The notes under the pieces: generated by a model
Databases searched by the model: none
Told to the model about the DNA's origin: nothing
The model's input: the letters and a program-made list of their open reading frames with translations, nothing else
Shown here: positions 21,738 to 49,274 of the stretch, piece by piece
Layout: the number at the start of each line of letters is the position of its first letter
Numbering within the stretch: the first letter of the stretch is position 1
Made by a program: the position numbers and the translations under genes
Source of the DNA: Planctomyces sp. SH-PL62
GTDB lineage: Bacteria; Planctomycetota; Planctomycetia; Planctomycetales; Planctomycetaceae
Direction of reading: 5' to 3'
Assembly: GCA_945905295.1 (NCBI GenBank)
Contig: CAMDPX010000018.1
Span: 1 to 52,857 of the forward strand
DNA length: 52,857 bases

Positions 21738-21889
21738 GAATGACGAATGACGAAATGCCCAATGACGAAAGAATGACGAAGCTCGAATGACGAAATAGTC
21801 TTCGTTCGTCGGTCACGATTTCAGTTGGCGATTCGTCATTTGGATTTCATTCGTCATTGGGTATTTCGTCATTCGTCATTCGTCATTCC
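21738..21889. repeat. AATGACGA-rich inverted repeat between moxR and DUF58 gene
   Basis: The left arm, about 21738-21781, and right arm, about 21842-21889, are built from tandem AATGACGA units and are reverse complements over at least 33 bases, with one extra unit on the right. The arms flank a mixed 60-base centre. It fills nearly the whole 162-base gap. Confidence 0.85.
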
Positions 21890-23721: not shown

Positions 23722-23776
23722 CCCCCGGACAAATTGATTCGCGAGCCGTCCGGGGGCTAACGCCCTCCGGCTCGCC
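23702..23776. repeat. GGCGAG-family palindrome (variant b) supplying a stop codon
   Basis: Arms 23702-23730 and 23748-23776, 29 bases, three or so mismatches, loop 17 bases. The right arm is identical to that of the 8453 copy. The upstream gene is read into the left arm and stops at its TAG (23719-23721). Confidence 0.92.
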
Positions 23777-24742: not shown

Positions 24743-24828
24743 GGGGTCGGGAGTCTTTTTCATGCCGCAGCCGAGAGTTTTCGATTGCGTGACTCGCGTC
24801 ATGCGGCATGAAAAAGACTCCCGACCCC
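24743..24828. repeat. GGGGTCGGGAGTC-family palindrome at a convergent junction
   Basis: Perfect 26-base arms at 24743-24768 and 24803-24828, loop 34 bases. It sits between two convergent genes and carries T5 and A5 runs inside the arms, so it could work as a bidirectional terminator. Related copies lie at 48426 (decayed) and 52770 (edge). Confidence 0.92.
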
Positions 24829-27998: not shown

Positions 27999-28380
27999 GA
28001 CGATCCTTTTTCCAAATCCGAATACACGATTGCCGCCCGATTGGCCCCCATCCTCGGCAAGGTCGGAGAACCTAACTATGTGTCTTTTGAGCAGCAACGC
28101 CAGAAGAAGCCGAGCGGCCAATTTCGCCGAACTGCTCCACTGTTTTTCGGCCATTGCAGGAGGACCGCCTGAGCAGATCGCAAACTTTGCGAGCGACCAA
28201 CGCCAACTCGCCAATCCCGTCAGTCGTCGGCGCAGCACGCCCAAAGCAAAAAACGACTCGGCGAGCGGGGCGGCGTCAGCCCCCCGGTAATTGACGTCGT
28301 TCGCAGAAAAACCGGGGGGCTGACGTCGCCCCGCTCGCCTGGGCCATTCGTAATCCGGCGTCATGAAATCTGTCGCCGGT
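27999..28380. other. 382-base intergenic leader
   Basis: This is the only gene-free stretch above 300 bases. It holds the 5' region of the beta-propeller gene and the palindrome at 28260-28339. The minus-strand frame is open throughout, but the coding look is poor and no promoter is convincing. The palindrome is about 260 bases upstream of the chosen start. I see no RNA gene. Confidence 0.6.
28260..28339. repeat. GGCGAG-family palindrome, intergenic copy
   Basis: Arms 28260-28288 and 28311-28339, 29 bases with one mismatch, loop 22 bases. It lies 41 bases after the stop of the TauE-like gene and upstream of the beta-propeller gene, both on the minus strand. Confidence 0.93.
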
Positions 28381-29874: not shown

Positions 29875-32052
29875 TCACCGAGACAGCCACTGCACCGCCG
29901 CGTTCGCTTTTGCAGCAGCTTCGCCGGTGAAGAGGGTCGGTGTGTTGGCTCCGGCTGCTTTCGAACTGGCGGCGGTGAGCTTCGGCAGTTCTTTCTCGCC
30001 GCTCAGCCAGACTTCGCTGCCGGCGCTCAGAGCCAGCAATCCGGGGACGTCACCGTACTTCACCGCTCCGGGGAGGAACTGCGGATCGTCGAACTCTGTC
30101 AGCGATGCGAAGCGGAAGCCGGCGGTGTCGATCGCGGTGCGATCAATCGCGGGGCCGGCGATCGCTTTCGCGGCGGCGACCCACGGGCCGGCTCCGCCGA
30201 AGCCGACGACATGGACCTTCTGGGCTCCGTGATCGTCGCCGCGCACGAAGCTGACCAGCGTCAGGATGTCGTGGACTCGCTGAGCGAACAGCGGGTGGTT
30301 GTAGCCGTAGGTGAAGCCGGCGAATTGGCGCGGCGTGTTGACCTTACGATTCCGCAGCGGCGTTGGCGTTCCGGCGGGGACGAGTTCTCCGGTGCCGAAC
30401 ACGTCCGGCGACGTCACGCTGAAGCCAGCGTCGAGCAGCGTTTTGATCTCGTACTTCGGCGAGCCGTCGGCATTGAACAGTCCCGACTTGCCGGACTCAT
30501 CGACCCACACGACGACTTGCTTGTTCCACTTCTTCGGGTGGAGGAACACGATCGGCAGTTCTTCCTGTTGCTTCTTCAATCGCAGGACGTCGCCGAAGAA
30601 GAAGAACTCGCCGCGATCTTCTTTCTTGATCTTCTCCCGTTCGATGCTTTTCGAATCGGGCAGTTCGCGGCCGATCAATGCCTTCCAACCGGTGCCGATC
30701 ACGTCGCGGAATTTCGTCAGCGAGTTGCTGTCGGTCGGCGTCAACGCAGCCAGTTGCTTGGCGTCGTCATCGGCCAGAGTCTTCGTCAGCGTGCGCTCGA
30801 AATCATCACCGCTGGGAGGCTTCGGGTGCTGGTCGTCCCAGACGGTCAGTTCGGCGATCGACAGCGGTTGGAAATCTTTTTCAACGATCGGGTCTTTGTC
30901 TCCGAGCTTCAGATGCTTGTTGAACCACGAGTACATCGCGGCTCGGCTGGGCTGGTTGTAGTTGTGGGGGAAGTGCAGATACGCCGTCGCCTTCACGTTG
31001 TCCTTCGCGCCTAGCATCTCGTAGAGCTTGGTCAGCTCCGGCATTCCCTTGGTCATGATCTCCTTGGTCCAGTCGTCAGCCGCCGCCATGCCCAGTGGCT
31101 TGGGCGCGAACAGGCCGGCGAGTTCAATGTTGCCGGTGCCGACTCGAAGCAGCGAGCAATTCTCGCAGGTGCATCCTCCCTGCATTCCGGTCGAGACCAT
31201 CACCGCCGGGAACTGCGCGGTGACGCGCGGATCAATCGCCGCCAGGATGAATGTCTGCGTGCCACCACCACTGGCTCCGGTCACGCCGATGCGATTCGGA
31301 TCGACGTCGCTTTGGCTGAGCATGAAATCGAGAGCCGCGATCGAGTCCAGCGTTTGCAGACCCATAGTACTCTGCAATCGCGCCTCGGCCTGAGCGCTGT
31401 AGAAGCCCCAGGAGTCCGGCTTTTCCATCTCCGGCCGCCGTTCCGAGTAGCGATGCACGAGAGCATGGCTGAGCTGTGTGCTATCCGCATTGCCGATCAT
31501 GTCGTAATGAAACACGACGCAGCCCATCCGCGCGAGCTGCACGCATCGCGCCTGCAACGGATACCGGCCGGAGTTCTCAAATCGTTCGGCCCCGACCACG
31601 ATCTGCTGTCGCACCGCCGCTTCGCCGGCGTCGTAGAACCGACCGTTGTTCCAGTGCCCGTGAGGACACAGGACTCCCGCGAACGGTCCCTTCTTTCCCT
31701 TCGGCTTGAAGAGACTGCCGGTCACGAAGAAGCCGGGAGCACTCTCGAAATAAACTCGCTCGACGGTGAAGTCGTCGCGATCCACCTTGCCGTGAATGAC
31801 CGGCTTGAGCGGTCCTTTGGTCGGCATCGGCCACAAGCCCTGCGAGACCAGCACTTGTTTGCGGACGACATCGGCTCGCTTGGCCCACTCTTCTTTGGTG
31901 GCGGGCACCTCCAGCGGGAAGTAACCGTTGAGGTCTTTCAAATTGCCGAGCCGTTTATCAGCGGGGACGCGACCTTCGGGAAGCACCTTCACATCGGCAA
32001 CGGCGAGCGAACTGACACAGCACACCACGAACGCAAGTAGCAGGCGGGTCAT
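29875..32052 (-). CDS. Exported alpha/beta hydrolase (acetylxylan esterase-like)
   Basis: A 725-residue secreted protein with signal peptide MTRLLLAFVVCCVSSLAVA. It is built of two alpha/beta-hydrolase-like halves. The first, about 90-410, contains GVTGASGGGTQTFILAAIDP, with nucleophile Ser in G-A-S-G-G, then HNYNQPSRAAMYSWFNKH with a candidate catalytic His, matching acetylxylan esterase/cephalosporin-C deacetylase-like planctomycete proteins. CTCENCSLLRV is a conserved Cys pair. The second half, about 490-725, has strands VVVWVDESGK and VHVVGFGGAGPWVAAA with no Ser at the elbow, so it is probably inactive. Substrate unknown, presumably a polysaccharide ester. It stands alone; BlaI lies divergently upstream. 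Confidence 0.87.
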   Translation of the reverse strand: MTRLLLAFVVCCVSSLAVADVKVLPEGRVPADKRLGNLKDLNGYFPLEVPATKEEWAKRADVVRKQVLVSQGLWPMPTKGPLKPVIHGKVDRDDFTVERVYFESAPGFFVTGSLFKPKGKKGPFAGVLCPHGHWNNGRFYDAGEAAVRQQIVVGAERFENSGRYPLQARCVQLARMGCVVFHYDMIGNADSTQLSHALVHRYSERRPEMEKPDSWGFYSAQAEARLQSTMGLQTLDSIAALDFMLSQSDVDPNRIGVTGASGGGTQTFILAAIDPRVTAQFPAVMVSTGMQGGCTCENCSLLRVGTGNIELAGLFAPKPLGMAAADDWTKEIMTKGMPELTKLYEMLGAKDNVKATAYLHFPHNYNQPSRAAMYSWFNKHLKLGDKDPIVEKDFQPLSIAELTVWDDQHPKPPSGDDFERTLTKTLADDDAKQLAALTPTDSNSLTKFRDVIGTGWKALIGRELPDSKSIEREKIKKEDRGEFFFFGDVLRLKKQQEELPIVFLHPKKWNKQVVVWVDESGKSGLFNADGSPKYEIKTLLDAGFSVTSPDVFGTGELVPAGTPTPLRNRKVNTPRQFAGFTYGYNHPLFAQRVHDILTLVSFVRGDDHGAQKVHVVGFGGAGPWVAAAKAIAGPAIDRTAIDTAGFRFASLTEFDDPQFLPGAVKYGDVPGLLALSAGSEVWLSGEKELPKLTAASSKAAGANTPTLFTGEAAAKANAAVQWLSR

Positions 32053-32166: not shown

Positions 32167-32241
32167 GTAGCCACGCTCGCCAAGAGCGTGGGGCGATGCG
32201 GTCTCAACGTCACGACCCACGCTCTTGGCGAGCGTGGCTAC
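32167..32241. repeat. GTAG-foot REP doublet upstream of blaI-like gene
   Basis: Perfect 26-base arms at 32167-32192 and 32216-32241. Each arm is GTAG followed by a hairpin (CCACGCTC with GAGCGTGG, five-base loop). It lies between the divergent hydrolase and BlaI genes and ends five bases before the first operator-like dyad. Confidence 0.93.
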
Positions 32242-32245
32242 ATCC

Positions 32246-32287
32246 TACGAAACTCTTCGTTGACAACTACGAACACGTTCGTAATAG
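32246..32287 (+). promoter_or_regulatory. Promoter with tandem BlaI-type operators
   Basis: A -35 TTGACA (32260-32265) and -10 TAATAG (32282-32287), 16 bases apart. A near-perfect dyad TACGAACACGTTCGTA (32268-32283) fills the spacer. A weaker copy, TACGAAACTCTTCGTT (32246-32261), precedes it at a 22-base centre spacing, two helical turns. The dyads recall BlaI/MecI operators (TACA/TGTA type). Autorepression by the BlaI-like protein 24 bases downstream is inferred. Confidence 0.72.
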
Positions 32288-32310
32288 TGCCGCGACCTAG
32301 GAGGCTCAAC

Positions 32311-32703
32311 ATGCCCAAACCCGAATTGCCACGACCGACTGAAGCGGAGCTCGCGATCTTGCGAGTGCTCTGGGAGCGCGGGCCCAGCACCGTGCGTGAA
32401 GTGACCGACGTGCTGCAAGAGGCGCGTGGGACCGGATACACGACCGCGCTGAAGCTGCTGCAGATCATGACCGAGAAGGGGCTTGTCCAGCGCGACGAGA
32501 CTTCGCGGGCACATGCCTATGAGGCGGTCGCCTCGGCCGAGACGACGCAGCGGCAACTCGTCACCGATCTTTTGGATCGAGCGTTTGGGGGTTCAGCTCG
32601 GCAGTTGGTGCTGCAAGCGTTGTCGGCCAAGCGCGCCTCACGCGATGAACTGGCGGAGATTCGCAGCTTGTTGGATGAGTTCGAGAAGAAGGCGAAATCG
32701 TAG
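32311..32703 (+). CDS. BlaI/MecI-type winged-helix repressor
   Basis: A 130-residue regulator. The winged helix spans about 5-80 (PTEAELAILRVLWERGPSTV, TTALKLLQIMTEKGLVQRDE), and the C-terminal dimerisation helices carry the conserved LLDRAFGGSARQLVLQAL. In BlaI systems the repressor is cleaved when its M56 partner senses a signal; that partner follows 73 bases downstream. The true start at 32311 has AGGAGG 7 bases upstream; the longer open frame from 32116 only crosses promoter and repeat. The stop TAG is the TAG of a GTAG repeat foot. Because the M56 partner lacks a penicillin-binding domain, beta-lactam sensing is not implied. Confidence 0.94.
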   Translation: MPKPELPRPTEAELAILRVLWERGPSTVREVTDVLQEARGTGYTTALKLLQIMTEKGLVQRDETSRAHAYEAVASAETTQRQLVTDLLDRAFGGSARQLVLQALSAKRASRDELAEIRSLLDEFEKKAKS

Positions 32704-32762
32704 CGCACGCGGCTCGCGTGCGAGTGAGTTGCCATCGACGCACGCGAGCCGCGTGCGCTACG
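32699..32762. repeat. GTAG-foot REP doublet between BlaI and M56 genes
   Basis: Perfect 24-base arms at 32699-32722 and 32739-32762. Each unit is GTAG plus a hairpin (CGCACGCG with CGCGTGCG, three-base loop). It begins inside the last BlaI codon, supplies that gene's stop, and ends 14 bases before the M56 start, so it fills the intercistronic space. Confidence 0.93.
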
Positions 32763-32776
32763 CCCGGAGACCGATC

Positions 32777-35700
32777 ATGTTGAGTCATGCGATCGAAGTT
32801 CTCGGTTGGACGTTGCTGCACTTTGTGTGGCAGGGAGCGGTTGTGGGAGTGCTCGCGGCGGCGATGCTGCTGGCGTTGCGGCGGAGGTCCGCGAACGCTC
32901 GGTATTTGACGGCGGTGTCCGCGCTGAGCCTGATGTTGCTGTTGCCGCTCGGCACGATCGCTTGGCTCGAACGTGTGCCGCTACCGGAAGACATCACGCC
33001 GATCGTCACGACGACACCGGCCATCGAGATGCCGCCCGTTCGCGAAATGGACTTCTCTCCGCGGGACGAGTCTCCGATCAACGTCGAACGCATTGAGTTC
33101 GAGAAATCGCCGCGCGTCGCTGCGGTGACGGTGGCTCCGGTGGTGGAAACGAAACCTACGCGGCTCGAAGAGGTGTCCGAGAAGCGAGAGGCTTTCGATG
33201 TCGAGGCGTTCGCCAAGCCGTTCATCCTGTGGGTCGTGGGGGTGTGGCTGATCGGTGTCGGAGCTCTTTCGCTCCGCTTGTTCGCGAGTTGGCTGAGCGT
33301 GCTGCGCTTGCGTCGGCGAGCGACTCAGCCGGCGAGTGCGAATTGGCAAGTGATGCTCGGCCGGTTGGCTGAGCGGTTGCGAGTCACTCGGCCGGTGCGG
33401 TTGGTTGAGTCGGCATTGGTCGAGGTTCCCGCAGTGATTGGGTGGCTGAGGCCGGTCATCTTGCTTCCGGCGAGTGCGATGACGGGGCTGACGACGGAGC
33501 AGCTCGAAGCGTTGCTGGCTCATGAGCTCGCTCATGTGCGGCGGCATGATTATCTCGTCAACTTGTTGCAGACGGTGGTTGAGACGTTGTTGTTCTATCA
33601 CCCGGCGGTGTGGTGGATCTCGCACCGGATTCGGTTGGAGCGCGAGCACTGCTGCGATGATCTCGCGGCGAGCGTTTGTGGCGATCGCTTGAGCTATGCG
33701 AAGGCGTTGGTGGCGATGGAGGAACTGCGGGCTCCGAAGCTTCGCTTGGTGATGTCGTCCAGCGGCGGAAGTTTGCGGACGCGAGTCGCTCGGTTGCTCG
33801 GCCAAGCGGAACAACAACGTCGGCCGACCGGTTGGTTCGCGGGTCTCTTGTTGCTGGTGGTGCTCACGATGGCCGGAGCGCTCGGCGCGGGTCTCCTGAC
33901 CCCGCCGGAAAAACCGACCGAAGGTCTCCCGCACGACACGCAGCCAACACCCACGAAAACAAACGAAACGGACGAGGAGACCTTCGGTCCAACCCAACGG
34001 CGGGGTCAGGAGACCCGCGCCGAGCAGGAGACCCGCGCCGAGCGCGACGATGAGGCCGATGCCGAGTTGAAAAAGACTCTGATGACCCGCGTTCGAGAAT
34101 CGACGGCGGCGTTGGCGCACGGCCGAATGGAGTTGGCTTTAGAGCAAGAACACTTCCTCAAGCCCAGCGCGGACAAACCGGATGGCGAAGTCGCCACTTC
34201 AACGGCCACTTCGCACTGGATCGGCGAGGAACAAAAATGGCGCGTCGATTACGACGGGCGGATGCTGCGGTCGATCGAGAATCGAATCGTCAACGAGTTT
34301 CTGCCGCTGCAATGGACCGCCGGGTTCGATGGCCAACAACACTACCAGTGGGATCGCGTGGTCAAGCAAATCGAGCTTGGCCGCGAGTTCCCGATGGCGT
34401 TGCAGCACTCGCCGGCTCGGTTGTTCTTCGGCTTCACGGTGGACGATTTACAGATGCTGCTGACGGCTCCGAAAACCAAAACGTCGGCGATCACACATCA
34501 GGGCTTGAAGTGCATCCAAGTGGACGCGGAGCTTGCAATGCAATCCAAGACGCAGCGGTTTGTCTTCATCCTCTGCCCTGAGCATGGCTACCTCCCGTTG
34601 GAGAATCGTTTCTATGCCGAGGGCCAATTCCTCGGCGAGACAAAGTTCTCCGACTTCTATGAACCGCGACCGGGAGTCTGGGCCGCTCGAAAGATCCAGA
34701 TCAAAAGTGCGGACCCCGAAAACCCCAATATGGAGAAGCCGCTCGAACGGATCACCCACACGGTGAAACGCCTGGACTTGGGCGAGGCCGCGAAACTTCA
34801 GGCCGAGGAATTCCGAGCTGATCCTCCGGAAGGCACAAAACGAATTGACGCCACGAAGACGGGAGACCTGCGGTCCAGCGAAGCGGCGGGGTCGGGAGAC
34901 CCGCGCCGAGCGGAGCGCGAGTTGGCCAAACGCAATTCTGTGCGTGGAAAACTTCAGAATCAAATTTCATTGCGCTTGGAAAAGACGCCGCTTCCTCAGG
35001 CCGTCGAGCAGATCGGACGAGAAGCGAAGATCGCAGTTCGGTTGGATTCAAAAGCATTGGAGAATGAAGGGATCGGTGACGACACCCCAGTGTCGATCAG
35101 CGTAGAGGGCATTTCGACAGCCGGTGCAATGCAGCTCCTCTTGCAACCAATTCAGCTTGGGTACTTCATCGAGAATGAGACGTTGGTGGTGACAACCGCC
35201 GCCCGTCTCGCCAAGACACCGGTCGAGGAGCGACTCGATCTCGGAAAGACTCTGGCCGATGAAGCGAAGATGGGCTTGCTGAGGGACGCGATTCAAACCT
35301 TCGTCGAACCAGAGGGATGGGACGTCGCGGGTGGCCCTGGCAGCATTCGATTCAATGCGAGTCGCGAAGAGTTCGTCGTTCATCATGCCCCTTTTATCCA
35401 ACACGACGTGGACCGCTTCTTGACGCACGTCTTGTCGCGTCCAATCTCACCGGAAATGGAGCGGCTGCGAAAGCTGCTCTCACAGCGTTTCACTATCGAG
35501 TTGGGAGAGGTCACGCTGCTGGAGGCCGTTCGCAAGATCGCGATGGCTGCGAACGCCAACGTCCTGCTCGACGCTGACGGATTAGAGACCGCCGGAGTTC
35601 GCTCCGATCGGCGAGTGACCGTGAATCACAAAGACGCGCCGCTGCGTGACATCCTCGATGGCCTGTGCAAACCGTTGAAGCTCCGCTTCCGAATCAGGAA

Positions 35701-38700
35701 TGAGGTCATCCAGATCACCGACGAGGAGACTGCACAGGGAGGCTTCTTCGCGGTGCTTTATCCGGTGAGTTCGCCAGCGGACGACTTGGTCCACCGCATC
35801 CAAGCCATTCGCCCTGACAGTTGGAAATTCGCCGGAGGCGAAGGAACGATCGAACCGCATCGCCCCACGAACTCGTTGATCATCCGCCAGCATGACGACG
35901 TTCATGACGAGATCGAACAATCCTTTGCGAAGCTCGGCCCTGGCGTGGGTGTCGCGACTCCGCCGGAATGGCCGCCGAAGGGCACTGGCAGCGGCACTTT
36001 CGCTCCCGCTGTAAAGCCAGCCGCTCCACTCAAGGGACAAATTCATTGGATCGACAAATCGAAGGAACTGGTCTGGATCAATCTCGGACACGCCGATGGT
36101 GTCGCCCGTCCGATGAGGTTTCAGGTCCGCGAAAAGGAAGATCCAAAGAATGGCAATCAACCGCCGGCCGTCAAAGGCAAGGTCGAAGTCCTCCGCGTGA
36201 TTGACGCACACGCGTCGGAGGCTCGCATCATTCTGGACGATCAAAACAATCCTGTGGCGAAAGGGGATGAGATCGTTCAACTCATTGAAACCACATCAGC
36301 GAAGAATGAGGCAATTGAAGGACAACTCAAACTGCCGCCACCAAAAGGCGAGATCTATGACGCGGCGCGTCTCGACGTGGAACGCATTAAGTCACCTCCA
36401 CTCTATGGTGAACAACGTCTCTCAAAGAAAGACGGCAACTCCGAGCGAGATCCGAAGAAGGTCGATCAGTTCACAGGTCGAGTGCGGCTCAAGACCGAGA
36501 AGCCCTTGCCGGATTTGGAAAAGGTCGTGGTCCCGGCCGGCAAGGTGCTGGATGAGTCGTTGGTGTTCTCGAAGGACGGTGGCTTGGCGAATGTGTTTGT
36601 CTATTTGCCGAAGCCGACGTTCCCGATCGAACCGCCGCCGAACGACAAGCCACCGAAGCCGTTCGTATTGATTGCGGAGGGGGAAAAGTTCTGGCCTCGT
36701 GCTGCGTTCGTGCGCGTCGGGCGGCCGGTCGTGTTTGAGAACCGGCAAACTGAGCAAGTCAACTTTCGCATGGGTCCGGTGAAAAACGTTTCCTTCAACG
36801 TCCTCGTGAAGGTCCAGGACCACATCAAAATTCAGGCGTTCCGATATCCGGAAGCCTTCCCGTTTAAGCTTCAGTCGGACATTCAACTGTGGATGGTGTC
36901 GCATCTGCTGACGCTCGATCATCCGTTCGCCGCCGTGACGGATGAAGAGGGCCGCTTCACCATCGACGGTCTGCCTCCCGGCGATCACGAGTTCCGGGTC
37001 TGGCACGAACGAGTCGGCTACTTGGAGAAAAAGCTCCTCGTCACGATCAAGGCTGGCGAACCAACACGCAACGTCTTGGAATACGAACCCAACCGCTTCG
37101 AACTCAGCGAGCCCGATGTTCTGAACTGGGGCCAAAGGCTCATCGACTCGGTGAGGGACCCGAATCCCCGGCCCAGAGTTGCGCCTCGCGCGCCGGCTGC
37201 CGCTCCGAAAGTCGAAGCGAAACTGGATTCACCAGACGCCGGCGCTGGGCGCGGGGCTCCCGACCCCGCCCCGAAGCCGACCGCAGGTCTCCCGGATTCG
37301 GAGAAGGGTCCAAAAGCCGGCGAGAAAAACAAAACCGAGGGAGACCTTCGGTCGGACCCAGCGGCGGGGTCGGGAGACCCGCGCCCAGCGCAGGAAGACT
37401 CGCGCCGAGCGCAGGAACAGGAACGGGTGAAGCCCGGCATCGAGCGAGGTGTCGTGTTCTTGAAGAGTCAGCAAGCGGAGAGCGGACTGTGGCCCGAGTT
37501 GATTCCGAATATGAATGGCGGTGTTTCGTCGCTGTGTACCTTGGCGTTGCTGCAAGCCGGTGCGAAGCCGGACGAGCCGACCATTCAGAAAGCATTGATC
37601 GCGTTGCGGAAGATCAAGCCGGACAAAACCTACACGGTCGCGTTGCAAACGATGGTCTTCTGCGCCGCGTCGCCGAAAGTGGACGCGGAGTTGATTCGAC
37701 ACAACGTGGCGTGGATCGAGAAGACTCAGATCCCCGTCGGACGGCTACACGGCGGTTGGAGTTACCAAGCCAGTTCGGTCGGAAATGGTGACGGATCGAA
37801 TACTCGTTTCGCCGTGATGGGTTTGCACGCGGCCAAGAAGGCGGGCTTCGACGTGCAGGCCGAAACGTGGCGACAAGTCAGCGACTACTACCTGACGACT
37901 CAAACCAACGAGGGTGGCTGGAGCTACTCAGCACAGGGGCCGCCATCACCGACGATGACTCTGGCGGGGGTAGCCGGCTTGGCGACCGCCAATCGGTACT
38001 TGCCTCAAGATGAGCAAACGAAGACTCGCGAGGCCGCCATTCGCAAGTCGGCCGAGTATCTCGAAAAGGTGATCCCCGAACTGCAACGAGCCTCGTTCGC
38101 GCTTTATGCCCTGCATTGTCTGGAACGAGCGGGACATGTCAGCGGCCAGTCTCAATTCGGCAAGCTCGAATGGAAAGCCGACATGACCAAGCGGCTGCTG
38201 GACACGCAAGGCCCAAGGGGGAATTGGAATGGCACTTCAGGAACCGAAAACGACCTCATCGGAACCAGCTTGGCGCTGCTCACACTGACGGGTCAGCCAG
38301 AGCCAAAATTGGTCGGACGCCGATTCAAGTTCGAGCCGCGCGAGGCCGGCCAGAAGTTCCACGTTCTCAGCAGTGTGAATCAAAACGTTGTGCCTCCAAT
38401 CCTACACACGGAAATCAGTGGCGGCGTGCGAATCGTGCTCGACGATTCGGACGGAACAACTTGGCGGATCGAAGCCGATCGCGCGCTGATCGAATCAGAC
38501 GAACAACAACCTGTGAGTTTCGCGATCAATGCCAGCAACCGCATCTCACGCATCAAGTACATCGGCTCGGTCAAGGCTGAAGGGGGCAACTCGCGAATCC
38601 TCTCCGATCAATTGGAATTAGATCTCACCCAGAACGACTCGATCGCGAGCCAGATCAACTCCGACTCAGCACGCGGCGAGAAGAAACCACTCGAAGCGGG

Positions 38701-40627
38701 AGCGCCTGCCAAAGCAAAAGACGCCGAAGCCGAAGCCGCCAATCGGCGAGTCCGCGGTGAATTGAAGAAGCTGATGGAAGTCGCCTTCACCGACACGCCG
38801 CTCAGTGACGTGATGCTGTTCCTCGGCGATTACCACAACATCTCGATGAAGTTGGACGAATCGTTGAAGGAACAACGGAAATTTCTCGGCGACGTCCCCG
38901 TCACACTCTGCGTGACGGGCGAAGACTTAGATGCGGTGCTGTCGCGGATTCTCCACAACCAGCGACTGAGTTACTTCGTGGACGGCGGAGAACTGCGAAT
39001 CGCCACTCCGGACGAAGTGCGTCGGCTGGGGCATCCCGTTCCGGAAAGTTTCGCGGAGACCTTGGTCAGACTGAAAAAGGCAGATTCCTCGGTGCCGTGG
39101 GAAAGATTTCTTCTGGGACGCGAGTGGCCGGAAAATGAAACTCGCGAGTCCTGGCTCAAACTCATTGAGACGCTTACGAAACTGCTGTCCCACTCGGAAG
39201 TCGTTGTTCAGCGACATGCCGCGTCCGTGTTGGCTCGATTTGATGAGGCGGCGGTTCACGCACGACCGGCGCTGGAAAAGCTCACGAAGTCCGAGGATCG
39301 CTCGGTTCGCCAGGCGGCTTGGCAGACATTGCTCGCGATCGGTCGCCAAGACCTCAGCACTTGGCCATTGTTTCTGGCAGCTTGGAACAACAAGGACGAG
39401 TACGTCCGCGAACAATGGCTCATGACGTTGCTGCAATTCCATCCGCGAGTCTTTGACGAATTGCTGGTGCTCTTCCCAACCTCCTCGGTGGAGTTTCGTC
39501 GGGCGTGTAGTGCCTCCCTGAGACATCGGAGAGAGCGACCGTCTTACGAGCAACTGGCGATCCTCGCGATGTCAGACGAAGACGAAGAAACCCGCTATCT
39601 GTCGCTGCGACACGCGAGGACTGAAGATCCCTCGCAACCATTTCTCTCGTCTTGGCGGCGGCGTCTGAAAGACGAATCGCCGCGCTGCCGAGTCTTGGCC
39701 GCGTCCAATTTGCTGCCGCTCGAATCGGATCGGCTCGATGCGCTGGAAGTCTTGCTCGATGAGATTGGTTCGGCGGACGAATCGCGATGGCCGGCAGCGG
39801 CACAGGTCATCACCGCCTATGCGACGGTTGATTACGGCGGACAATTCCGGGATCGCTTGCTCCGGCGTTCTGTTACCGGCGACGAGCAACAACGTGCCGT
39901 GATTCGCAAAGCACTAAAGTTCGTCCCGGAAAGCCGAAGTCATGCGGCCATCTTGCAAGAGATCGACGCCCAGCTCGAAAACGTCCGTGAAGACAAGCGA
40001 TTCCCGCTCGCTAAACGTCTGGAATTTCTGGATGAATTGGGTCGGGATCGAATGAACCCCAACGGTTCCGAAGAACTCCGAGCCCGCGTCGGTCATCACC
40101 TCGCTCACTACTTCGCCAAGTGGGATCTCATCGCGCACAACGCTCGCGTGCGCGAGTATTCCCTTGCGGCCTTAAAACTCGACGTCGATGCAGACCGCCG
40201 CGCGAGTTTGTTCTCGCTGGTGGGTTCAGCAGCACTGGTGGACCCCGCCGTGCCGACGTTCGCCGAACAACGCCGCAATGCCGCCAAGCTATGGCTTACC
40301 GGATATCGAGAAGTCGTGTCGCTCAAGCTCCCGAAGTCCGCGCCGGAACTTCCGGTCGTCGAAAAACTCGGCGATATCGCGGGCGAGCCTCCCGAACAGC
40401 GAGCCGCTCGTGAACAACAACATGCCACTCAATTGGAAGCTCGGCAACAGGCCGAGTTCATTCGGCGGATGGTCGCGCACCGTCATCAACTGGCACATCT
40501 GCTTGTCGAGACCCACCGACGTGATCCCGCGAACGAACCCGAACTCCGCACGCTCGCCAAAGGAGTGCTCGTTGATAAATCGCTCGTCGAAATGCTGCTG
40601 GCAGAGGGAATCGTTCCGCAACAATAA
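32777..40627 (+). CDS. Giant M56 (BlaR1-like) metallopeptidase mosaic
   Basis: A 2616-residue membrane protein, against about 350-600 for usual BlaR1-type M56 sensors. Residues 1-360: four or so membrane helices and the peptidase site AHELAHVRRHDYLVN (HExxH near 248) with EREHCCDDLAASV. About 425-690: LolA-like beta domain. About 726-811, 894-984 and 1992-2081: three STN/secretin-like alpha-beta domains (TPLPQAVEQIG; VTLLEAVRKIA; TPLSDVMLFLG). About 1081-1171: beta barrel. About 1232-1441: cupredoxin/carboxypeptidase-regulatory-like (DEEGRFTIDGLPPGDHEFRV). About 1552-1850: alpha/alpha-toroid of prenyltransferase/squalene-cyclase type (GVVFLKSQQAESGLW). About 2138-2614: HEAT-like repeats. Three linkers (368-416, 695-711, 1488-1538) come from palindromic repeats. 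The ATG at 32777 follows GGAGA; an upstream extension overlaps BlaI. No beta-lactam-binding domain. Ligand unknown. Confidence 0.85.
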   Translation: MLSHAIEVLGWTLLHFVWQGAVVGVLAAAMLLALRRRSANARYLTAVSALSLMLLLPLGTIAWLERVPLPEDITPIVTTTPAIEMPPVREMDFSPRDESPINVERIEFEKSPRVAAVTVAPVVETKPTRLEEVSEKREAFDVEAFAKPFILWVVGVWLIGVGALSLRLFASWLSVLRLRRRATQPASANWQVMLGRLAERLRVTRPVRLVESALVEVPAVIGWLRPVILLPASAMTGLTTEQLEALLAHELAHVRRHDYLVNLLQTVVETLLFYHPAVWWISHRIRLEREHCCDDLAASVCGDRLSYAKALVAMEELRAPKLRLVMSSSGGSLRTRVARLLGQAEQQRRPTGWFAGLLLLVVLTMAGALGAGLLTPPEKPTEGLPHDTQPTPTKTNETDEETFGPTQRRGQETRAEQETRAERDDEADAELKKTLMTRVRESTAALAHGRMELALEQEHFLKPSADKPDGEVATSTATSHWIGEEQKWRVDYDGRMLRSIENRIVNEFLPLQWTAGFDGQQHYQWDRVVKQIELGREFPMALQHSPARLFFGFTVDDLQMLLTAPKTKTSAITHQGLKCIQVDAELAMQSKTQRFVFILCPEHGYLPLENRFYAEGQFLGETKFSDFYEPRPGVWAARKIQIKSADPENPNMEKPLERITHTVKRLDLGEAAKLQAEEFRADPPEGTKRIDATKTGDLRSSEAAGSGDPRRAERELAKRNSVRGKLQNQISLRLEKTPLPQAVEQIGREAKIAVRLDSKALENEGIGDDTPVSISVEGISTAGAMQLLLQPIQLGYFIENETLVVTTAARLAKTPVEERLDLGKTLADEAKMGLLRDAIQTFVEPEGWDVAGGPGSIRFNASREEFVVHHAPFIQHDVDRFLTHVLSRPISPEMERLRKLLSQRFTIELGEVTLLEAVRKIAMAANANVLLDADGLETAGVRSDRRVTVNHKDAPLRDILDGLCKPLKLRFRIRNEVIQITDEETAQGGFFAVLYPVSSPADDLVHRIQAIRPDSWKFAGGEGTIEPHRPTNSLIIRQHDDVHDEIEQSFAKLGPGVGVATPPEWPPKGTGSGTFAPAVKPAAPLKGQIHWIDKSKELVWINLGHADGVARPMRFQVREKEDPKNGNQPPAVKGKVEVLRVIDAHASEARIILDDQNNPVAKGDEIVQLIETTSAKNEAIEGQLKLPPPKGEIYDAARLDVERIKSPPLYGEQRLSKKDGNSERDPKKVDQFTGRVRLKTEKPLPDLEKVVVPAGKVLDESLVFSKDGGLANVFVYLPKPTFPIEPPPNDKPPKPFVLIAEGEKFWPRAAFVRVGRPVVFENRQTEQVNFRMGPVKNVSFNVLVKVQDHIKIQAFRYPEAFPFKLQSDIQLWMVSHLLTLDHPFAAVTDEEGRFTIDGLPPGDHEFRVWHERVGYLEKKLLVTIKAGEPTRNVLEYEPNRFELSEPDVLNWGQRLIDSVRDPNPRPRVAPRAPAAAPKVEAKLDSPDAGAGRGAPDPAPKPTAGLPDSEKGPKAGEKNKTEGDLRSDPAAGSGDPRPAQEDSRRAQEQERVKPGIERGVVFLKSQQAESGLWPELIPNMNGGVSSLCTLALLQAGAKPDEPTIQKALIALRKIKPDKTYTVALQTMVFCAASPKVDAELIRHNVAWIEKTQIPVGRLHGGWSYQASSVGNGDGSNTRFAVMGLHAAKKAGFDVQAETWRQVSDYYLTTQTNEGGWSYSAQGPPSPTMTLAGVAGLATANRYLPQDEQTKTREAAIRKSAEYLEKVIPELQRASFALYALHCLERAGHVSGQSQFGKLEWKADMTKRLLDTQGPRGNWNGTSGTENDLIGTSLALLTLTGQPEPKLVGRRFKFEPREAGQKFHVLSSVNQNVVPPILHTEISGGVRIVLDDSDGTTWRIEADRALIESDEQQPVSFAINASNRISRIKYIGSVKAEGGNSRILSDQLELDLTQNDSIASQINSDSARGEKKPLEAGAPAKAKDAEAEAANRRVRGELKKLMEVAFTDTPLSDVMLFLGDYHNISMKLDESLKEQRKFLGDVPVTLCVTGEDLDAVLSRILHNQRLSYFVDGGELRIATPDEVRRLGHPVPESFAETLVRLKKADSSVPWERFLLGREWPENETRESWLKLIETLTKLLSHSEVVVQRHAASVLARFDEAAVHARPALEKLTKSEDRSVRQAAWQTLLAIGRQDLSTWPLFLAAWNNKDEYVREQWLMTLLQFHPRVFDELLVLFPTSSVEFRRACSASLRHRRERPSYEQLAILAMSDEDEETRYLSLRHARTEDPSQPFLSSWRRRLKDESPRCRVLAASNLLPLESDRLDALEVLLDEIGSADESRWPAAAQVITAYATVDYGGQFRDRLLRRSVTGDEQQRAVIRKALKFVPESRSHAAILQEIDAQLENVREDKRFPLAKRLEFLDELGRDRMNPNGSEELRARVGHHLAHYFAKWDLIAHNARVREYSLAALKLDVDADRRASLFSLVGSAALVDPAVPTFAEQRRNAAKLWLTGYREVVSLKLPKSAPELPVVEKLGDIAGEPPEQRAAREQQHATQLEARQQAEFIRRMVAHRHQLAHLLVETHRRDPANEPELRTLAKGVLVDKSLVEMLLAEGIVPQQ
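33881..34024. repeat. GGGTCTCC-family palindrome, copy i, in M56 gene
   Basis: Outer arms 33881-33906 and 33999-34024 are perfect over 26 bases; inner arms 33916-33929 and 33976-33989 pair as well (GACCGAAGGTC type). The 144 bases are 48 codons exactly. It is read as GAGLLTPPEKPTEGLP ... ETFGPTQRRGQETRAE just after the last membrane helix. Confidence 0.9.
34862..34910. repeat. GGGTCTCC-family half element in M56 gene
   Basis: This matches the right half of the copies at 33881 and 37242 (GGAGACC...GGCGGGGTCGGGAGACC). Only one arm is present. It is read as GDLRSSEAAGSGDPRRAE between the LolA-like and first STN-like domains. Confidence 0.85.
37242..37391. repeat. GGGTCTCC-family palindrome, copy iii, in M56 gene
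   Basis: Left arm 37242-37292 and right arm 37339-37391 are about 50 bases each with scattered mismatches. The span of 150 bases is 50 codons. It is read as GAGRGAPDPAPKPTAGLP ... GDLRSDPAAGSGDPRPA between the cupredoxin-like and toroid domains. Confidence 0.9.
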
Positions 40628-40714
40628 ACGCGGCCCCTTCACAGATCGCAGGGCGGCGAGTGCGACGACTTTGGCTGGAGACATCCTCAGCGAATCAGAT
40701 TCAGCAATTTGCCC

Positions 40715-40803
40715 CATCCGTGTGTGAGTTCCAATCCGTGTGCGAAGTGCGTTCATCCGATTGGAACGCGCTGCACACACGGATTGGAACTGACACACGG
40801 ATG
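40715..40803. repeat. 28-bp-arm palindrome between convergent M56 and lspA genes
   Basis: Arms 40715-40742 and 40776-40803 are reverse complements with one mismatch, loop 33 bases. It lies between the ends of two convergent genes (88 bases after the M56 stop, 49 bases from the lspA stop), where a bidirectional terminator would be expected. No U-run follows either arm. Confidence 0.88.
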
Positions 40804-40852
40804 AAGGGAGACTGAATCGGCGGCTGCTAAGCGGACATTCCAAGCGGTCACG

Positions 40853-41488
40853 TCAGCAGTGAATTGTCCCAGCCGGCGGTCCAACTGTTGGCTCGTTCGA
40901 GCGATTTGCCAGCTTGGCGGCGTGGTGTTCGGCCCAGAATGAGTATGCCACCAGCATTCCCGTCCCTGTGACCAGAAACACGTCGGCGAAATTGAAGACC
41001 GGCCACGAATAGTCGCCGAACGTGAAGAGCAAAAAATCACGCACGGCTCGATAGGGTTCCCCGGTCTCGGCATTCCTGTAGCCGTACAAGCCTAGCCGGT
41101 CATAAAGATTGCCGAGCGTGCCGCTGAGCACCAAGCAGAGAGCGACCGTCAGCCAATTGCTCTGCCCAGCCGACGTCTTCAGCAAGCAGTAGACGATGAC
41201 CACGACCGCGACAACGCTCAGCGCGGCGAACAGCCACGTCAGACCCTGACCGATTCCCCACAAGGCTCCTTCGTTGAAGCTCGTGAAGAGCCGGAACGTC
41301 GAGAGCTGTCCGAGCCAGCGATAGATGCGTCCTTGCCCGCCGGGGTAGCCCAGCCAGTCGAAGACCACCGCTTTGGAATACAGATCCAAAGCCAAACAGC
41401 CCGTCGTCAGCGGGATGATCAGACACAGCCGCCGAAAAATGCAGGGCATCGGGGCAGTGGAAGCAGTTTGAGATTGCGGCTCGTCCAT
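40853..41488 (-). CDS. lspA: Lipoprotein signal peptidase (signal peptidase II)
   Basis: A 211-residue inner-membrane aspartic protease that cuts prolipoproteins before the lipidated Cys. Four hydrophobic segments are visible. Family blocks: FNEGALWGIGQG (N-x-G-A), SGTLGNLYDRLGLYGYRNA (GNxxDR with the first catalytic Asp) and VFNFADVFLVTGTGML (second catalytic Asp). A longer loop before the last block (NAETGEPYRAVRDFLLFTFG) is typical of planctomycete homologues. The start at 41486-41488 is chosen because GGAGG lies seven bases before it; the alternative ATG at 41500 overlaps that site. A TraR/DksA gene precedes it on the same strand, with a REP doublet between. Confidence 0.96.
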   Translation of the reverse strand: MDEPQSQTASTAPMPCIFRRLCLIIPLTTGCLALDLYSKAVVFDWLGYPGGQGRIYRWLGQLSTFRLFTSFNEGALWGIGQGLTWLFAALSVVAVVVIVYCLLKTSAGQSNWLTVALCLVLSGTLGNLYDRLGLYGYRNAETGEPYRAVRDFLLFTFGDYSWPVFNFADVFLVTGTGMLVAYSFWAEHHAAKLANRSNEPTVGPPAGTIHC

Positions 41489-41557
41489 GAAATCCTCCAA
41501 GCCGGGAAACTATGGCTCCCGCCACGATTAACGCTAGAGGAAGTCGTCCCGCGTGAG

Positions 41558-41622
41558 ACGTAGGACGGACAATCCTGTCCGTCGCCTGGTCTCGGGCACG
41601 GACAGGATTGTCCGTGCTACGT
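41558..41622. repeat. GTAG-foot REP doublet with compensatory change
   Basis: Arms 41558-41582 and 41598-41622. The left unit is GTAG plus stem GACGGACA/TGTCCGTC; the right unit, read inward, is GTAG plus CACGGACA/TGTCCGTG. The one mismatch between arms (G against C) is matched by a change at the partner position within each unit, so each unit stays a perfect hairpin. It lies between lspA and the TraR/DksA gene. Confidence 0.93.
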
Positions 41623-41648
41623 TGTGCTTGCGGTTCCGCTGCGATGGA

Positions 41649-42050
41649 CTACCGTCGCCACTTGCGGGTTCGTTGCTGCTCGGCGCAATGGACGCAGGTG
41701 CGGACGTAGGGGATCGCTTTGAGCCGTTCTTTAATGATGGCCGCCTTCGCGGGCGGCTTCCCTTCCGCGAGGCAATTTTCGCAGAGGCCGTAGGTTCCGG
41801 CGTCGATCTTTTTCAGGGCGAGCGAGATCTCATCCAGAATCTCCTGCTCGTTCTCGACGAACCGGAGCGAAAAATCTTGCTCGTAGTTGTCGGTCCCCAG
41901 TTCGGCAATGTGGGTCGGGCTCTTCGAGTCGCCGTCCCCGTCGGATCGGCGCAAGGCACCGTCGGCCAATTGCTGGACGTCTCCGCGGAGACGTGTCTGG
42001 AGGACCAACAAAAGTGACTTAAACTCGCCCAGCTCAGTCTTTTTCAGCAT
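41649..42050 (-). CDS. TraR/DksA-type C4 zinc finger protein
   Basis: A 133-residue RNA-polymerase-binding regulator of the DksA/TraR family. A helical hairpin (about 8-85) is followed by the C4 zinc finger CENC ... CVHC (Cys 90, 93, 119, 122), with the typical YGLCENC and GKPPAKAAIIKERLKAIPYV stretch. The acidic tip residues that act in true DksA are not clear, so the effect on ppGpp control is uncertain. The start MLKKTELGEF at 42048-42050 is chosen by homology; no clear Shine-Dalgarno is present, and the frame upstream is open only by chance. A promoter-like pair lies at 42199-42226. It precedes lspA, an arrangement I recall from other planctomycetes. Confidence 0.9.
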   Translation of the reverse strand: MLKKTELGEFKSLLLVLQTRLRGDVQQLADGALRRSDGDGDSKSPTHIAELGTDNYEQDFSLRFVENEQEILDEISLALKKIDAGTYGLCENCLAEGKPPAKAAIIKERLKAIPYVRTCVHCAEQQRTRKWRR

Positions 42051-42198
42051 TTGAGGAGACCCATTACGGCTGACCACGCGGGATGTCCGGAAACCGTCAC
42101 CCCGCCTCGCGAGGCTGCCGTCCGAGCACCTTCCTCCCTGAGCAGTATCAGGCCGAAACCCGATCCGGCCATGTCCCTCGGCCGGTAAAAAGCGGCGG

Positions 42199-42226
42199 AT
42201 TATCACTGGTTTTTCGCCGTTATCAA
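42199..42226 (-). promoter_or_regulatory. Sigma70-like promoter for TraR/DksA gene
   Basis: On the minus strand -35 TTGATA (42226-42221) and -10 GATAAT (42204-42199) are 16 bases apart, each one base from consensus. The start point would be near 42192, giving a leader of about 140 bases. It lies in the 278-base gap after the oxidoreductase gene, where no gene is seen. Confidence 0.5.
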
Positions 42227-42328
42227 GCTGATAGCTGATGTCGTGCGAAAAAGTGAGCCAGTTTCCGCCAGGAAGCGAGCGATTCTCCGGATCACTCCGA
42301 AGCTGCAACCCACAATGCGGCAAGCGGC

Positions 42329-43378
42329 TTACGCCGCTCGGCGAGCCGTTGCAGCCGGCATCTGCTCGGAGATCATCTGTTGAGTGGCCAAGACTCCCAG
42401 AATCCGTTCGGCGACGGTCAGAGCTTCCAGAGCTACCGAGCCGGTCACGGTCGGAGTTGAGCCGGTTCGCACACACTCGACGAACTCCGCAATCTCCGCG
42501 GTCAGAGCGTCTTGCGGGGCGGGAATCTCCTGATGGACTTCGATCAGCGAGCCGAAAACTTCCTGCTTGAGCCTCTCGATGTCCGCCCCCGGCTGCCGAG
42601 CTTGCTCGACCGGAGACAGGCCGTGACGCAATTGGACGGATGGCGAGTAAGTCGTCAATTCCCGCGAGCCATAATCCACGTTCAAACATTGCGTCGCTGT
42701 CCAAACCGTGGTGGCACGACGAGTCGTGGGGTGAATCCGGCTGGCCGACAGATCGGCCAGGCAGCCGTTCTCGAAGATCAGCCGAACTTGCACGGCATCT
42801 TCGTGCTCGCCCATCAAACGGATTCCGAACGCTTCGACTCGGCTGACCGGCGAATGGACCAGCGACAGAATCAAATCCAGGTCGTGGATCAGCATGTCGT
42901 GTACGACGCCGATGTCGGTCGACCGAAAGCTGAACGGACTCAGCCGCTCGGACCGGATGTAGCGCGGTGCGTCACACTTCTCGCGCAGTGCTTGGAACGC
43001 GGGATTGAACCGCTCGACATGGCCGACTTGCAGGGTCGCCCCCGTCCTGTCGGCGAGCTGCACGAGTTGCCTGGCTTCGGCCAGGTCGGCGGCCAGCGGT
43101 TTCTCAACCAGAGAATGAATGCCATTTTCGAGGAAGTCGGTCGCGACACGGAAATGGAAACCGGTCGGCACTGCGATGGTCACGGCATCCACGTCGTCAA
43201 TGAGCACGCGATGATCCGCGACCCATTTCGTGTTCGCGGCCAGGGCGACCTTCTCGCCCTGAGCTTGGCTCGGGTCCGCAACGGCGATCAATTCGACACC
43301 GGGAAGCTGGGACACGATCCGCGCGTGATGCCGACCAAGTGCGCCGACTCCGATGACGGCCATTCGTAATTGACTCAT
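42329..43378 (-). CDS. Gfo/Idh/MocA oxidoreductase of the lipid A cluster
   Basis: A 349-residue NAD-dependent sugar dehydrogenase-like protein. The Rossmann fold starts at MAVIGVGALGRHHARI, the EKP motif is in SLVEKPLAADL, and GHVERFNPAF and DMLIHDLDLIL (His/Asp of the active site) follow. It starts 113 bases behind lpxA on the same strand. In bacteria that make lipid A with 2,3-diamino sugars, a family member called GnnA oxidises UDP-GlcNAc and sits next to lpxA; the GHVERFNP motif and the location fit that idea, but no GnnB-like aminotransferase is in the window. The start MSQLRMAVIG (43376-43378) is preferred to a 13-codon longer frame. Confidence 0.9.
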   Translation of the reverse strand: MSQLRMAVIGVGALGRHHARIVSQLPGVELIAVADPSQAQGEKVALAANTKWVADHRVLIDDVDAVTIAVPTGFHFRVATDFLENGIHSLVEKPLAADLAEARQLVQLADRTGATLQVGHVERFNPAFQALREKCDAPRYIRSERLSPFSFRSTDIGVVHDMLIHDLDLILSLVHSPVSRVEAFGIRLMGEHEDAVQVRLIFENGCLADLSASRIHPTTRRATTVWTATQCLNVDYGSRELTTYSPSVQLRHGLSPVEQARQPGADIERLKQEVFGSLIEVHQEIPAPQDALTAEIAEFVECVRTGSTPTVTGSVALEALTVAERILGVLATQQMISEQMPAATARRAA

Positions 43379-43421
43379 GCTTGCCACCCCAAGAATTTCA
43401 TCAAGGCTGCGCCTCAAGCCC

Positions 43422-43487
43422 GTAGCCGATGTCGTGAGACGTCGGTGAATTGGTCAAGAACATCCGAAGTCTCACGACTTCGGCGAC
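43422..43487. repeat. GTAG-foot REP doublet (one foot altered) after lpxA
   Basis: Left unit 43422-43445: GTAG plus CCGATGTC/GACGTCGG, loop GTGA. Right unit 43464-43487, read inward: GTCG plus CCGAAGTC/GACTTCGG. The stems differ at one position, but each still pairs (T-G against A-T). It lies five bases after the lpxA stop. Confidence 0.85.
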
Positions 43488-43491
43488 AGAT

Positions 43492-44343
43492 TTATGCCGC
43501 TTTGCGTTGTTCACGCGTGTTGATCGACGGTGCGTTGCGGAAGACTTCGCGGCCGCGCCCCAACTTGCCGGCATTGGTCAGGTCGATGAAGTTCAGCAGC
43601 GTGTGCAGCTCGATCGAATGAATGTCTTCATTCTGTTGCGAGAAGAACTCACGCACTTCGGAAACGGTCTTGTGTTCGCGGAACAGCAGCTTGTAAGCGT
43701 GCCGGATGATCCCGATCGACGACTCGGACACACCGGCGCGCTTCATGCCGACGTTGTTCACGGTCTTGACCTCAAACTTGTCGCTGCCGGCGGCCATCAT
43801 AAACGGGGGCACGTCCACCGTGCAGCGGCAGCCGCCGCTGATGAACGCCATCGTCCCCACGGACGCGAAGTGATGCACCACCGTGTTGCCGGAAATGATG
43901 GCTCGGTCGTGAACATGGACGTGACCACCCAGCAGCACGCCGTTGACCAGCATCACGTTGTTGCCCAGACAACAATTGTGTGCGACATGTGCGTTTGACA
44001 TCAGCATGTTGTTGTGGCCGATGCGCGTGCCGTGGTCTTCCTTCTCGGCTCCGCGATTGACCGTCACCCCTTCGCGGAAGACGTTGTCGTCGCCGATCTC
44101 CAGCCAGGTCGCGGATTCTTGATAGCTGTAATCCTGCGGCTCGCCCCCGATGACGCAATTCGTGAAGAAGCGGTTCCGTTCGCCGATCGTCGTATGCCCG
44201 ATGACCGTGACGTTGTTGGCCAGGCAGCAGCCGTTGCCGATCTTCACATGCGGACCGATGACACAGAACGGACCGATCTCGATGTCGTCACCGAGTTCGG
44301 CATGAGGGTCCACGCAAGCAAGCGGGTGAATCGTGTTGGCCAT
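43492..44343 (-). CDS. lpxA: UDP-N-acetylglucosamine acyltransferase LpxA
   Basis: A 283-residue cytosolic left-handed beta-helix acyltransferase that starts lipid A synthesis by moving a hydroxyacyl chain from acyl-ACP onto UDP-GlcNAc (or its 3-amino derivative). Hexapeptide repeats fill residues 1-190 (IHPLACVDPHAELGDDIEIG, VGTMAFISGGCRCTVDVPPF). The catalytic His is in MSNAHVAHNC, and GGEPQDYSY and the C-terminal helical bundle are present. Length is slightly above the usual 260. It follows lpxC by 99 bases containing a REP doublet; the Gfo/Idh gene follows. No fabZ or lpxD is in the window. Confidence 0.96.
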   Translation of the reverse strand: MANTIHPLACVDPHAELGDDIEIGPFCVIGPHVKIGNGCCLANNVTVIGHTTIGERNRFFTNCVIGGEPQDYSYQESATWLEIGDDNVFREGVTVNRGAEKEDHGTRIGHNNMLMSNAHVAHNCCLGNNVMLVNGVLLGGHVHVHDRAIISGNTVVHHFASVGTMAFISGGCRCTVDVPPFMMAAGSDKFEVKTVNNVGMKRAGVSESSIGIIRHAYKLLFREHKTVSEVREFFSQQNEDIHSIELHTLLNFIDLTNAGKLGRGREVFRNAPSINTREQRKAA

Positions 44344-44359
44344 GTGACATCCTTGTCGT

Positions 44360-44424
44360 CGTAGCCTGACTCTCCGAGTCGGGCATTGTTTTCTAAAATG
44401 CCCGACTCGGAGAGTCAGGCTACG
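44360..44424. repeat. GTAG-foot REP doublet between lpxC and lpxA
   Basis: Perfect 28-base arms 44360-44387 and 44397-44424 with a nine-base loop. Each unit is GTAG plus a hairpin (CCTGACTC with GAGTCGGG, loop TCC, one T-G pair). It starts 17 bases upstream of the lpxA start codon. Confidence 0.93.
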
Positions 44425-49150: not shown

Positions 49151-49274
49151 GGAATTGAAAATTGAAAATTGAAAATTTGAAATTGCAAATTGGGGACGGC
49201 AGGACGGCTTTCACCATCGTGATTTCACCGGCCATTGCCTTCCATTTTTCAATTTCAAATTTTCAATTTTCAAT
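49151..49274. repeat. AATTGAAAATTG-type inverted repeat
   Basis: The left arm at 49151-49191 and right arm at 49246-49274 are tandem TTGAAAA-like units in inverted orientation around a G+C-richer centre. It fills the gap between the 73-residue gene and dcd and resembles the element at 22754. Confidence 0.85.

Follow-up and report, generated by a model that had tools for sequence, protein, structure and literature searches.

GTAG-type REP doublets with many cores in a planctomycete genome, and a divergent RAYT-like lineage flanked by similar units in related species

GTAG-type repetitive extragenic palindromic (REP) sequences are described by Di Nocera (2013; PMC3733652) as having stems mostly of 6-9 bp, short loops, complementary changes in the stems and G-T pairs. 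They are reported there to form homo- and heterodimers arranged head to head, with several families in one genome, including that of the planctomycete R. baltica, and with REPtrons that are sometimes missing. Here we analyze five doublets of this kind in contig CAMDPX010000018.1 of Planctomyces sp. SH-PL62 (52,857 bases, the whole of which is called the window). We conclude that they are very probably GTAG-type REPINs, that is, REP doublets, spread as non-autonomous units by a REP-associated tyrosine transposase (RAYT, or TnpA-REP) that reads the foot and the loop and for which the stem need only be paired.

According to Nunvar (2010, PMC2817692; 2013, PMC3686654), the RAYT is a Y1 HUH protein whose gene is flanked by its own type of REP, and the two co-evolve; orthologous RAYTs with differing REPs are also reported, and the 2013 paper states that REP classes are "quite often" abundant where the RAYT is absent. 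Corneloup (2021, PMC8266576) found that the group-3 TnpA-REP proteins tested there require GTAG, bases of the loop and a stem that is matched, and that they are active on a single strand. TnpA-Y1 subclasses with specific REP types, and atypical class-3 Y1 genes in Planctomycetes, are described in PMC6006769, and REPIN populations in Pseudomonas in PMC3116915.

The elements studied here are like the GTAG REPs of PMC3733652, as characterized there, in their foot, stems, loops, stem changes, dimers and several families, and also in the absence of a cognate gene. They differ in that twelve core patterns are found in this one genome, a comparison in which they are set beside the published families by description. 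The plan, the heterodimers, the several families per genome, loop recognition and REPs without a RAYT are already published; what is added is a loop-and-foot pattern followed over many genomes, a divergent RAYT lineage, and RAYT-less populations. It is striking that a single genome contains so many kinds of REP, and that for the commonest of them the matching enzyme came to light in related species only.

Doublets in the window and across the genome

An earlier note on this DNA had described five doublets with a common plan, GTAG followed by a hairpin and then the same unit inverted, and had identified this as the plan of REP doublets. All five are present, 0-2 bases from the coordinates given in that note, and all lie between predicted open reading frames (ORFs), three of them between genes on the same strand. 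The assignment is supported by the GTAG feet, the hairpins, the head-to-head pairing, the copy number and the presence of RAYTs in the genome. A scan of the window for GTAG...CTAC found four doublets, with arms that match at 19-20 of the first 20 bases, and the same scan found none in 20 shuffles of two-base blocks. The doublet at 43422 was missed because its right-hand foot is GTCG. In the other nine units the foot is GTAG, directly 5' of the palindrome; a CGTC foot is absent from all ten, which gives no sign of membership of the CGTC REPs. When folded alone with DNA parameters, every unit forms an 8-bp hairpin with the foot unpaired. Eight of the units are much stronger than their shuffles (z -3.4 to -6.2), and the two at 44361 are weak by this measure (z -1.97, with 10 of 200 shuffles as good).

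The arms of some doublets differ. At 41560 (41558 in the earlier note, which had claimed a compensated difference here) the first stem pair is G-C in one arm and C-G in the other, and both hairpins remain fully paired, as claimed. At 43422, which had been called a similar case, the arms do differ on both sides of one pair, with A-T on the right, but the result on the left is a T.G wobble, and the change is therefore a two-sided change to a wobble.

The units are multicopy. The assembly to which the window belongs, as contig 18, comprises 476 contigs and 8.6 Mb and is 97.2% complete, and pattern counts over it were controlled with the reversed pattern. Family B, with a loop of four or five bases, has 454 matches (control 1), family C 77 (control 0) and family A 54 (control 0), and there are 101 exact copies of the family D sequence GTAGCCTGACTCTCCGAGTC (control 0), so that the multicopy distribution, whose absence was among the things that the earlier note had named as refuting, is found. 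Family F was counted in the 1,039-kb sample only (see below), with 11 units. A family-blind finder was applied to 400 kb outside the window, consisting of 20 stretches of 20 kb chosen regardless of repeats. It found 61 units of GTAG plus hairpin, compared with 1, 2 and 1 in three dinucleotide shuffles; a hairpin follows 61 of 1014 GTAG feet (6.0%) as against 0.3-0.9% for 12 other tetranucleotides.

A larger sample of 1,039 kb was made up of the window and 53 stretches, 13 of these picked around transposase genes. It contains 234 units under 13 patterns; the patterns fix the loops, and a unit was left out if more than two of its pairs were not Watson-Crick. Merging the four- and five-base loops of B gives the twelve core patterns, some of them sparse (K with one unit, E and I with four each). 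In this sample 83 of 92 neighbor pairs 35-140 bp apart are head to head with the feet outside, eight are tandem (five and three) and one is tail to tail; 57 of the 234 units have no partner in range. The stems are identical in 28 of the 83 head-to-head doublets, unlike with both hairpins paired in 35, and unlike with one hairpin mispaired in 20, the last class being inflated by the outer, often unpaired base of family H; two of the 83 mix families. The commonest unlike stem pairs are a C/G exchange at one stem position (B1, C, G and H). Since the arms are unlike in 55 of 83 doublets and both hairpins are nevertheless paired in 35 of these, it is the hairpin unit rather than the long palindrome that has been kept, as the earlier note maintained.

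Copies of B and C show the same pattern of paired change. When copies up to four changes away from the consensus are compared with it, even and odd numbers of differences stand at 27:5 for B1, 32:3 for B2, 20:2 for B3 and 28:3 for C; the corresponding p-values, 1e-4 to 4e-7, overstate independence, as the copies are related by descent and most of the four-base class belongs to other subfamilies. The ratio for family A (12:4) is swamped by chance matches. In nine of ten consensus scans the GTAG foot changes less (0.7-3.9% per site) than the rest of the unit (3.4-14.4%), where the rest takes in other subfamilies; the tenth scan, for A, is again swamped by chance matches.

The wobble pairs show a strand bias. 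A finder that treats G.T and A.C alike was run on this genome; of the 261 GTAG units, 83 have G.T (30 distinct) and 8 have A.C (7 distinct), compared with G.T 133 and A.C 138 for five control feet together; GTGG, itself a possible REP foot, gave 18 and 16. In GTAG units at the RAYT loci of relatives the counts are G.T 31 and A.C 6 (21 and 4 distinct, with one gene fetched twice), as against 43 and 40 for control feet. In the relatives the wobble is found at several stem positions, in related loci that are not independent. Such an excess of G.T over A.C would be expected if the GTAG strand is recognized in its folded form, with cytosine deamination of the exposed GTAG strand as a rival cause.

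Y1 transposase genes in this genome and in relatives

The genome contains 16 Y1-type genes or fragments (Table 1), PF01797 identifying 13 places and NF047646 three more (C42, C374 and the C1 fragment). RAYT genes, which the earlier note had advised looking for, are among them: C166 (176 bits) and C42 (92 bits) are above the NF047646 cut-off of 80, and C166 matches the solved TnpA-REP structure 4er8 at E 5e-37. Four intact RAYTs, of C166, of C42, and of C225 together with C147, have GTAG units on both sides, and these units are of three types. The C390 protein is over the IS200 cut-off.

RAYT types were sorted by similarity to four seeds; the loci used were the best-scoring or hand-picked ones and do not amount to a full census. 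Units of type 1 (present at 21 of 31 loci) start GTAG-G and have loops such as tgt or tccc; type 2 units (17 of 21 loci) are mostly GTGG-C; type 3 units (8 of 8 loci, one gene counted twice) have mostly G-N-N-A loops; and type 4 units (20 of 24 loci) have mostly tcc loops. Type 4 is suggested by the loops tcc (families D, J, K and M) and ctct (I). The intact type-4 genes of this genome are C225 and C147, the C225 protein scoring 58 bits with NF047646, which is below the cut-off; relics of such genes remain on C286 and C38. A single type-4 enzyme for several tcc families would be the core-tolerant enzyme that the earlier note had envisaged. The relic on C38 (L208, about 1180-1560) is a decayed type-4 RAYT-like frame that encloses a family F doublet and is preceded, about 150 bp upstream, by a family G unit.

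Families B and C match type 3. A congeneric genome, G083, contains a Y1 gene with a weak score that has B and C units at its flanks. A search of 101 genomes of the family with the G083 protein found seven near-full-length genes in six genomes and one fragment, together with further weak matches to proteins of type 4, and did not find the gene in the genome of the window. Each of the seven near-full-length genes is bordered on both sides by units whose loops are of the B/C type. A pattern-based profile scan of an 84,980-species collection then gave 76 type-3 loci, by title mostly from Planctomycetota or Verrucomicrobiota, with a few only "bacterium" and one Armatimonadetes. GTAG or GTGG units are found within 300 bp at 51 of these 76 loci, whereas each of six control feet, taken singly, gives 3-9 of 76, and at least one G-N2/3-A loop is present at 49 of the 51. 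Stem positions 3-7 from the loop each show at least three pair types, wobble included; L211 carries the family C stem pair of this genome, and L218 the B2 pair. Among the 51 loci with units, G.T pairs are found at 29 and A.C at one (71 and 1 pairs).

In the type-3 protein the HUH residues H70-x-H72 and the single catalytic tyrosine, Y131, are invariant in all 25 aligned sequences. The type-3 profile had no match among the sequences of solved structures, and a fold search was therefore run with the predicted model, which is confident (mean predicted local distance difference test score, pLDDT, 93.6). The best match in the PDB is TnpA-REP 4er8, at E 8.7e-8. The protein tested is under both annotation cut-offs, with 34.4 bits for NF047646 (cut-off 80) and 13.4 for PF01797 (cut-off 23), and genes of this kind are therefore easily overlooked. 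By predicted fold and by flanks it may be called RAYT-like, outside the NF047646 model. These scores, and the G-N2/3-A loop, distinguish it from the published RAYTs; what it shares with the TnpA-Y1 classes, as these are described in PMC6006769, is the link of subclasses to specific REP types and the presence of atypical Y1 genes in Planctomycetes. No title on a G-N-N-A loop RAYT class was found in a literature search that excluded subscription papers and preprints, which is weak evidence of absence.

A genome was counted as B/C-rich if it had at least 30 matches to a joint pattern, a threshold picked after the counts were known. By this definition 22 of the 101 family genomes are rich, comprising seven of the seven with a type-3 gene (one of them a fragment) and 15 of the other 94 (Fisher p 1e-5). 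A type-3 gene thus predicts B/C repeats, yet it is lacking from two thirds of the B/C-rich genomes, among them the genome studied here.

Table 1 REP doublets and other palindromes of the window, and flanks of the Y1 genes of the genome
Feature	Position	Strand	Description
REP doublet, family B, five-base loop	32167..32241	.	stem CCACGCTC, loop gccaa; arms identical
REP doublet, family A	32700..32761	.	stem CGCACGCG, loop gct; arms identical
REP doublet, family F	41560..41620	.	loop atcc; arms GACGGACA/TGTCCGTC vs CACGGACA/TGTCCGTG, difference compensated
REP doublet, family C	43422..43487	.	loop gtga; left unit T.G wobble, right foot GTCG
REP doublet, family D	44361..44423	.	stem CCTGACTC/GAGTCGGG, loop tcc; T.G wobble on GTAG strand, both units
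GGCGAGC palindromes	8453-8526, 19691-19738, 23714-23764, 28260-28339, 49990-50078		in the window
C166			long bulged GTAG unit on both sides
C42			family H units on both sides
C225, C147			GTAGGTTGGGACTCCGTCCCGAC or near copies on both sides
C115, C222, C288			long inverted repeats starting GGGGTCGGG
C23, C56			short terminal repeats
C15, C390, C90, C45			short proteins, hairpins upstream; C45 both sides; C390 hairpins are GTAG family E
C374			GGCGAGCC-type hairpins
C67, C1 fragment			no recognized flanks

Neighboring genes and other repeats

The doublet at 32167 is flanked by an ORF at 29875-32052(-) and a blaI-like repressor gene (Penicillinase_R). The GTAG foot of the doublet at 32700 contains the TAG stop codon (32701-32703) of the blaI-like gene, and an M56 peptidase gene starts at 32777. 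An open frame of about 2,600 codons extends from there to 40627; a scan of its first 500 codons identified a BlaR1-type M56 peptidase domain at the start. The remaining doublets are flanked by lspA (Peptidase_A8) and an ORF without a Pfam match (41560), by a GFO/IDH/MocA gene and lpxA (43422), and by lpxA and lpxC (44361).

A palindrome family without GTAG is also present, in which a foot-like GGCGAGC is followed by a hairpin with a GTCA or GTTA loop and the core GGCGTYAGCCCCC. The core has 11 matches in the window and 79 in the 1,039-kb sample, and similar units adjoin a Y1-like gene both here (C374, L074) and in a congener (L121). Long palindromes GGGGTCGGGAGTCTTTTTC... are located at 24743-24828 and 52770-52857; repeats of the same kind flank the C115 Y1 gene (L035) on both sides, and they resemble the terminal inverted repeats (TIRs) of Di Nocera's TIRYTs. 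Two RAYT-like proteins of 440 and 327 amino acids (L036 and L037, on C222 and C288) have GGGGTCGGGT palindromes nearby, and a C-terminal stretch of the L037 protein matches DnaA at 31 bits, far below the cut-off of 344. Finally, A+T-rich inverted repeats of AATGACGAA and TTGAAAATTG words, unlike the REP families, are found at 21739-21883 and 49154-49274; AATGACGAATGACGA occurs 19 times in the 1,039-kb sample.

Weighing of the explanations

In the mechanism that we propose, the REPIN consists of two head-to-head REP units, each with a GTAG foot and then an 8-bp hairpin with a short, family-specific loop. The doublet is reportedly the replicating unit. A RAYT would most likely cut and join the units as single-stranded hairpins on the GTAG strand. 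It would read the foot and the loop, and the stem need only pair, so that stems could drift by paired changes and many cores could arise in one genome. We infer the cutting, the mobility and the loop reading from the published biochemistry of other RAYTs.

Several observations weigh against this reading or against parts of it. Paired stem change is plain in B, C and many doublet arms, but single changes prevail elsewhere, with even and odd differences at 7:16 for D, 5:11 for G, 5:6 for F, 8:23 for H and 8:15 for M; and the wobble bias in this genome comes mainly from D and M, while that of H is partly at its outer, often unpaired base. At 25 of the 76 type-3 loci there is no unit in range. By title 15 of these are Verrucomicrobiota, two "bacterium" and one Armatimonadetes, and three are at contig ends; four are planctomycete loci with adequate flanks (L234, L245, L253 and L281). 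Of the 22 B/C-rich genomes, 15 have no type-3 match at E<1e-30 in a single-protein search. In the window's genome, searches with PF01797, NF047646, the type-3 protein and the type-3 profile did not find a cognate RAYT for B and C, the profile yielding only a RAYT of another class at E 0.02, and yet there are 512 B/C matches by the joint pattern (reversed control 7). The question raised in the earlier note, whether each core has a RAYT of its own, is answered differently for different cores. None of the five window cores is found on both sides of any of the 16 Y1 genes or fragments in the assembly, whereas three other GTAG types do flank RAYTs; the neighbors within 1 kb are one-sided, C390 having a B unit at 342 bp, the C1 fragment a B doublet at 522 bp, and C115 A/B units at 814-913 bp. 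In relatives, B (32167) and C (43422) match the divergent RAYT, and D (44361) matches in loop type only; for A (32700) and F (41560) no flanked RAYT was found among the relatives' loci fetched. We do not take a missing flanking RAYT to exclude REP membership, because REPs without a RAYT are reported to be frequent (PMC3686654).

The hairpins could instead be kept for a role in host RNA or DNA, as a 3'-end stabilizer, attenuator, terminator or protein-binding site, with mobility secondary or past. Roles in supercoiling, termination and mRNA stabilization are named for REPs in PMC3733652, the window doublets are all intergenic and partly between same-strand genes, and B and C keep paired stems although their cognate RAYT was not found. 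We nevertheless consider this unlikely. A head-to-head doublet is always read as the GTAG strand over one of its units and as the complement over the other. A role in RNA should therefore leave the wobble pairs unbiased with respect to the foot, whereas they favor the GTAG strand of each unit; the foot is also more conserved than the remainder in nine of ten consensus scans. Known RNAs and terminators were considered and rejected, as there is no Rfam match in the window and no T run after the right ends of the doublets. Selection for the long palindromes as cruciforms, with the units merely halves of them, would account for the 28 doublets with identical stems; it is largely refuted, and barely tenable, given that most arms differ, that many such pairs keep both hairpins, and that 57 units are without a partner.

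The lack of a type-3 gene may have another cause, namely that the gene exists in the organism, within the few per cent that are missing from this fragmented assembly. We regard this as doubtful. Several genes would have to be missing, because B and C match several RAYT lineages (L211 and L218), and a type-3 gene is likewise not found in 14 further B/C-rich genomes of the family, of which eight are 95-100% complete. Returning to the reading of the doublets as REPINs, we suggest tentatively that a RAYT lineage of Planctomycetota, and of some Verrucomicrobiota, may read GTAG and a G-N2/3-A loop while ignoring the stem sequence, and that its REPs may outlive the loss of the gene, either kept by the host or served in trans by other resident RAYTs of types 1, 2 or 4.

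With its dozen or so core patterns, this planctomycete genome extends what is known of REP/RAYT biology. It also provides a natural data set on how RAYTs read their substrates, in which the foot and loop are fixed, the stems are free but paired, and the wobble favors the GTAG strand. Populations of B and C units survive in this genome, in which no cognate RAYT gene was detected, and such RAYT-less populations allow the persistence of REPs in the absence of the enzyme to be tested.

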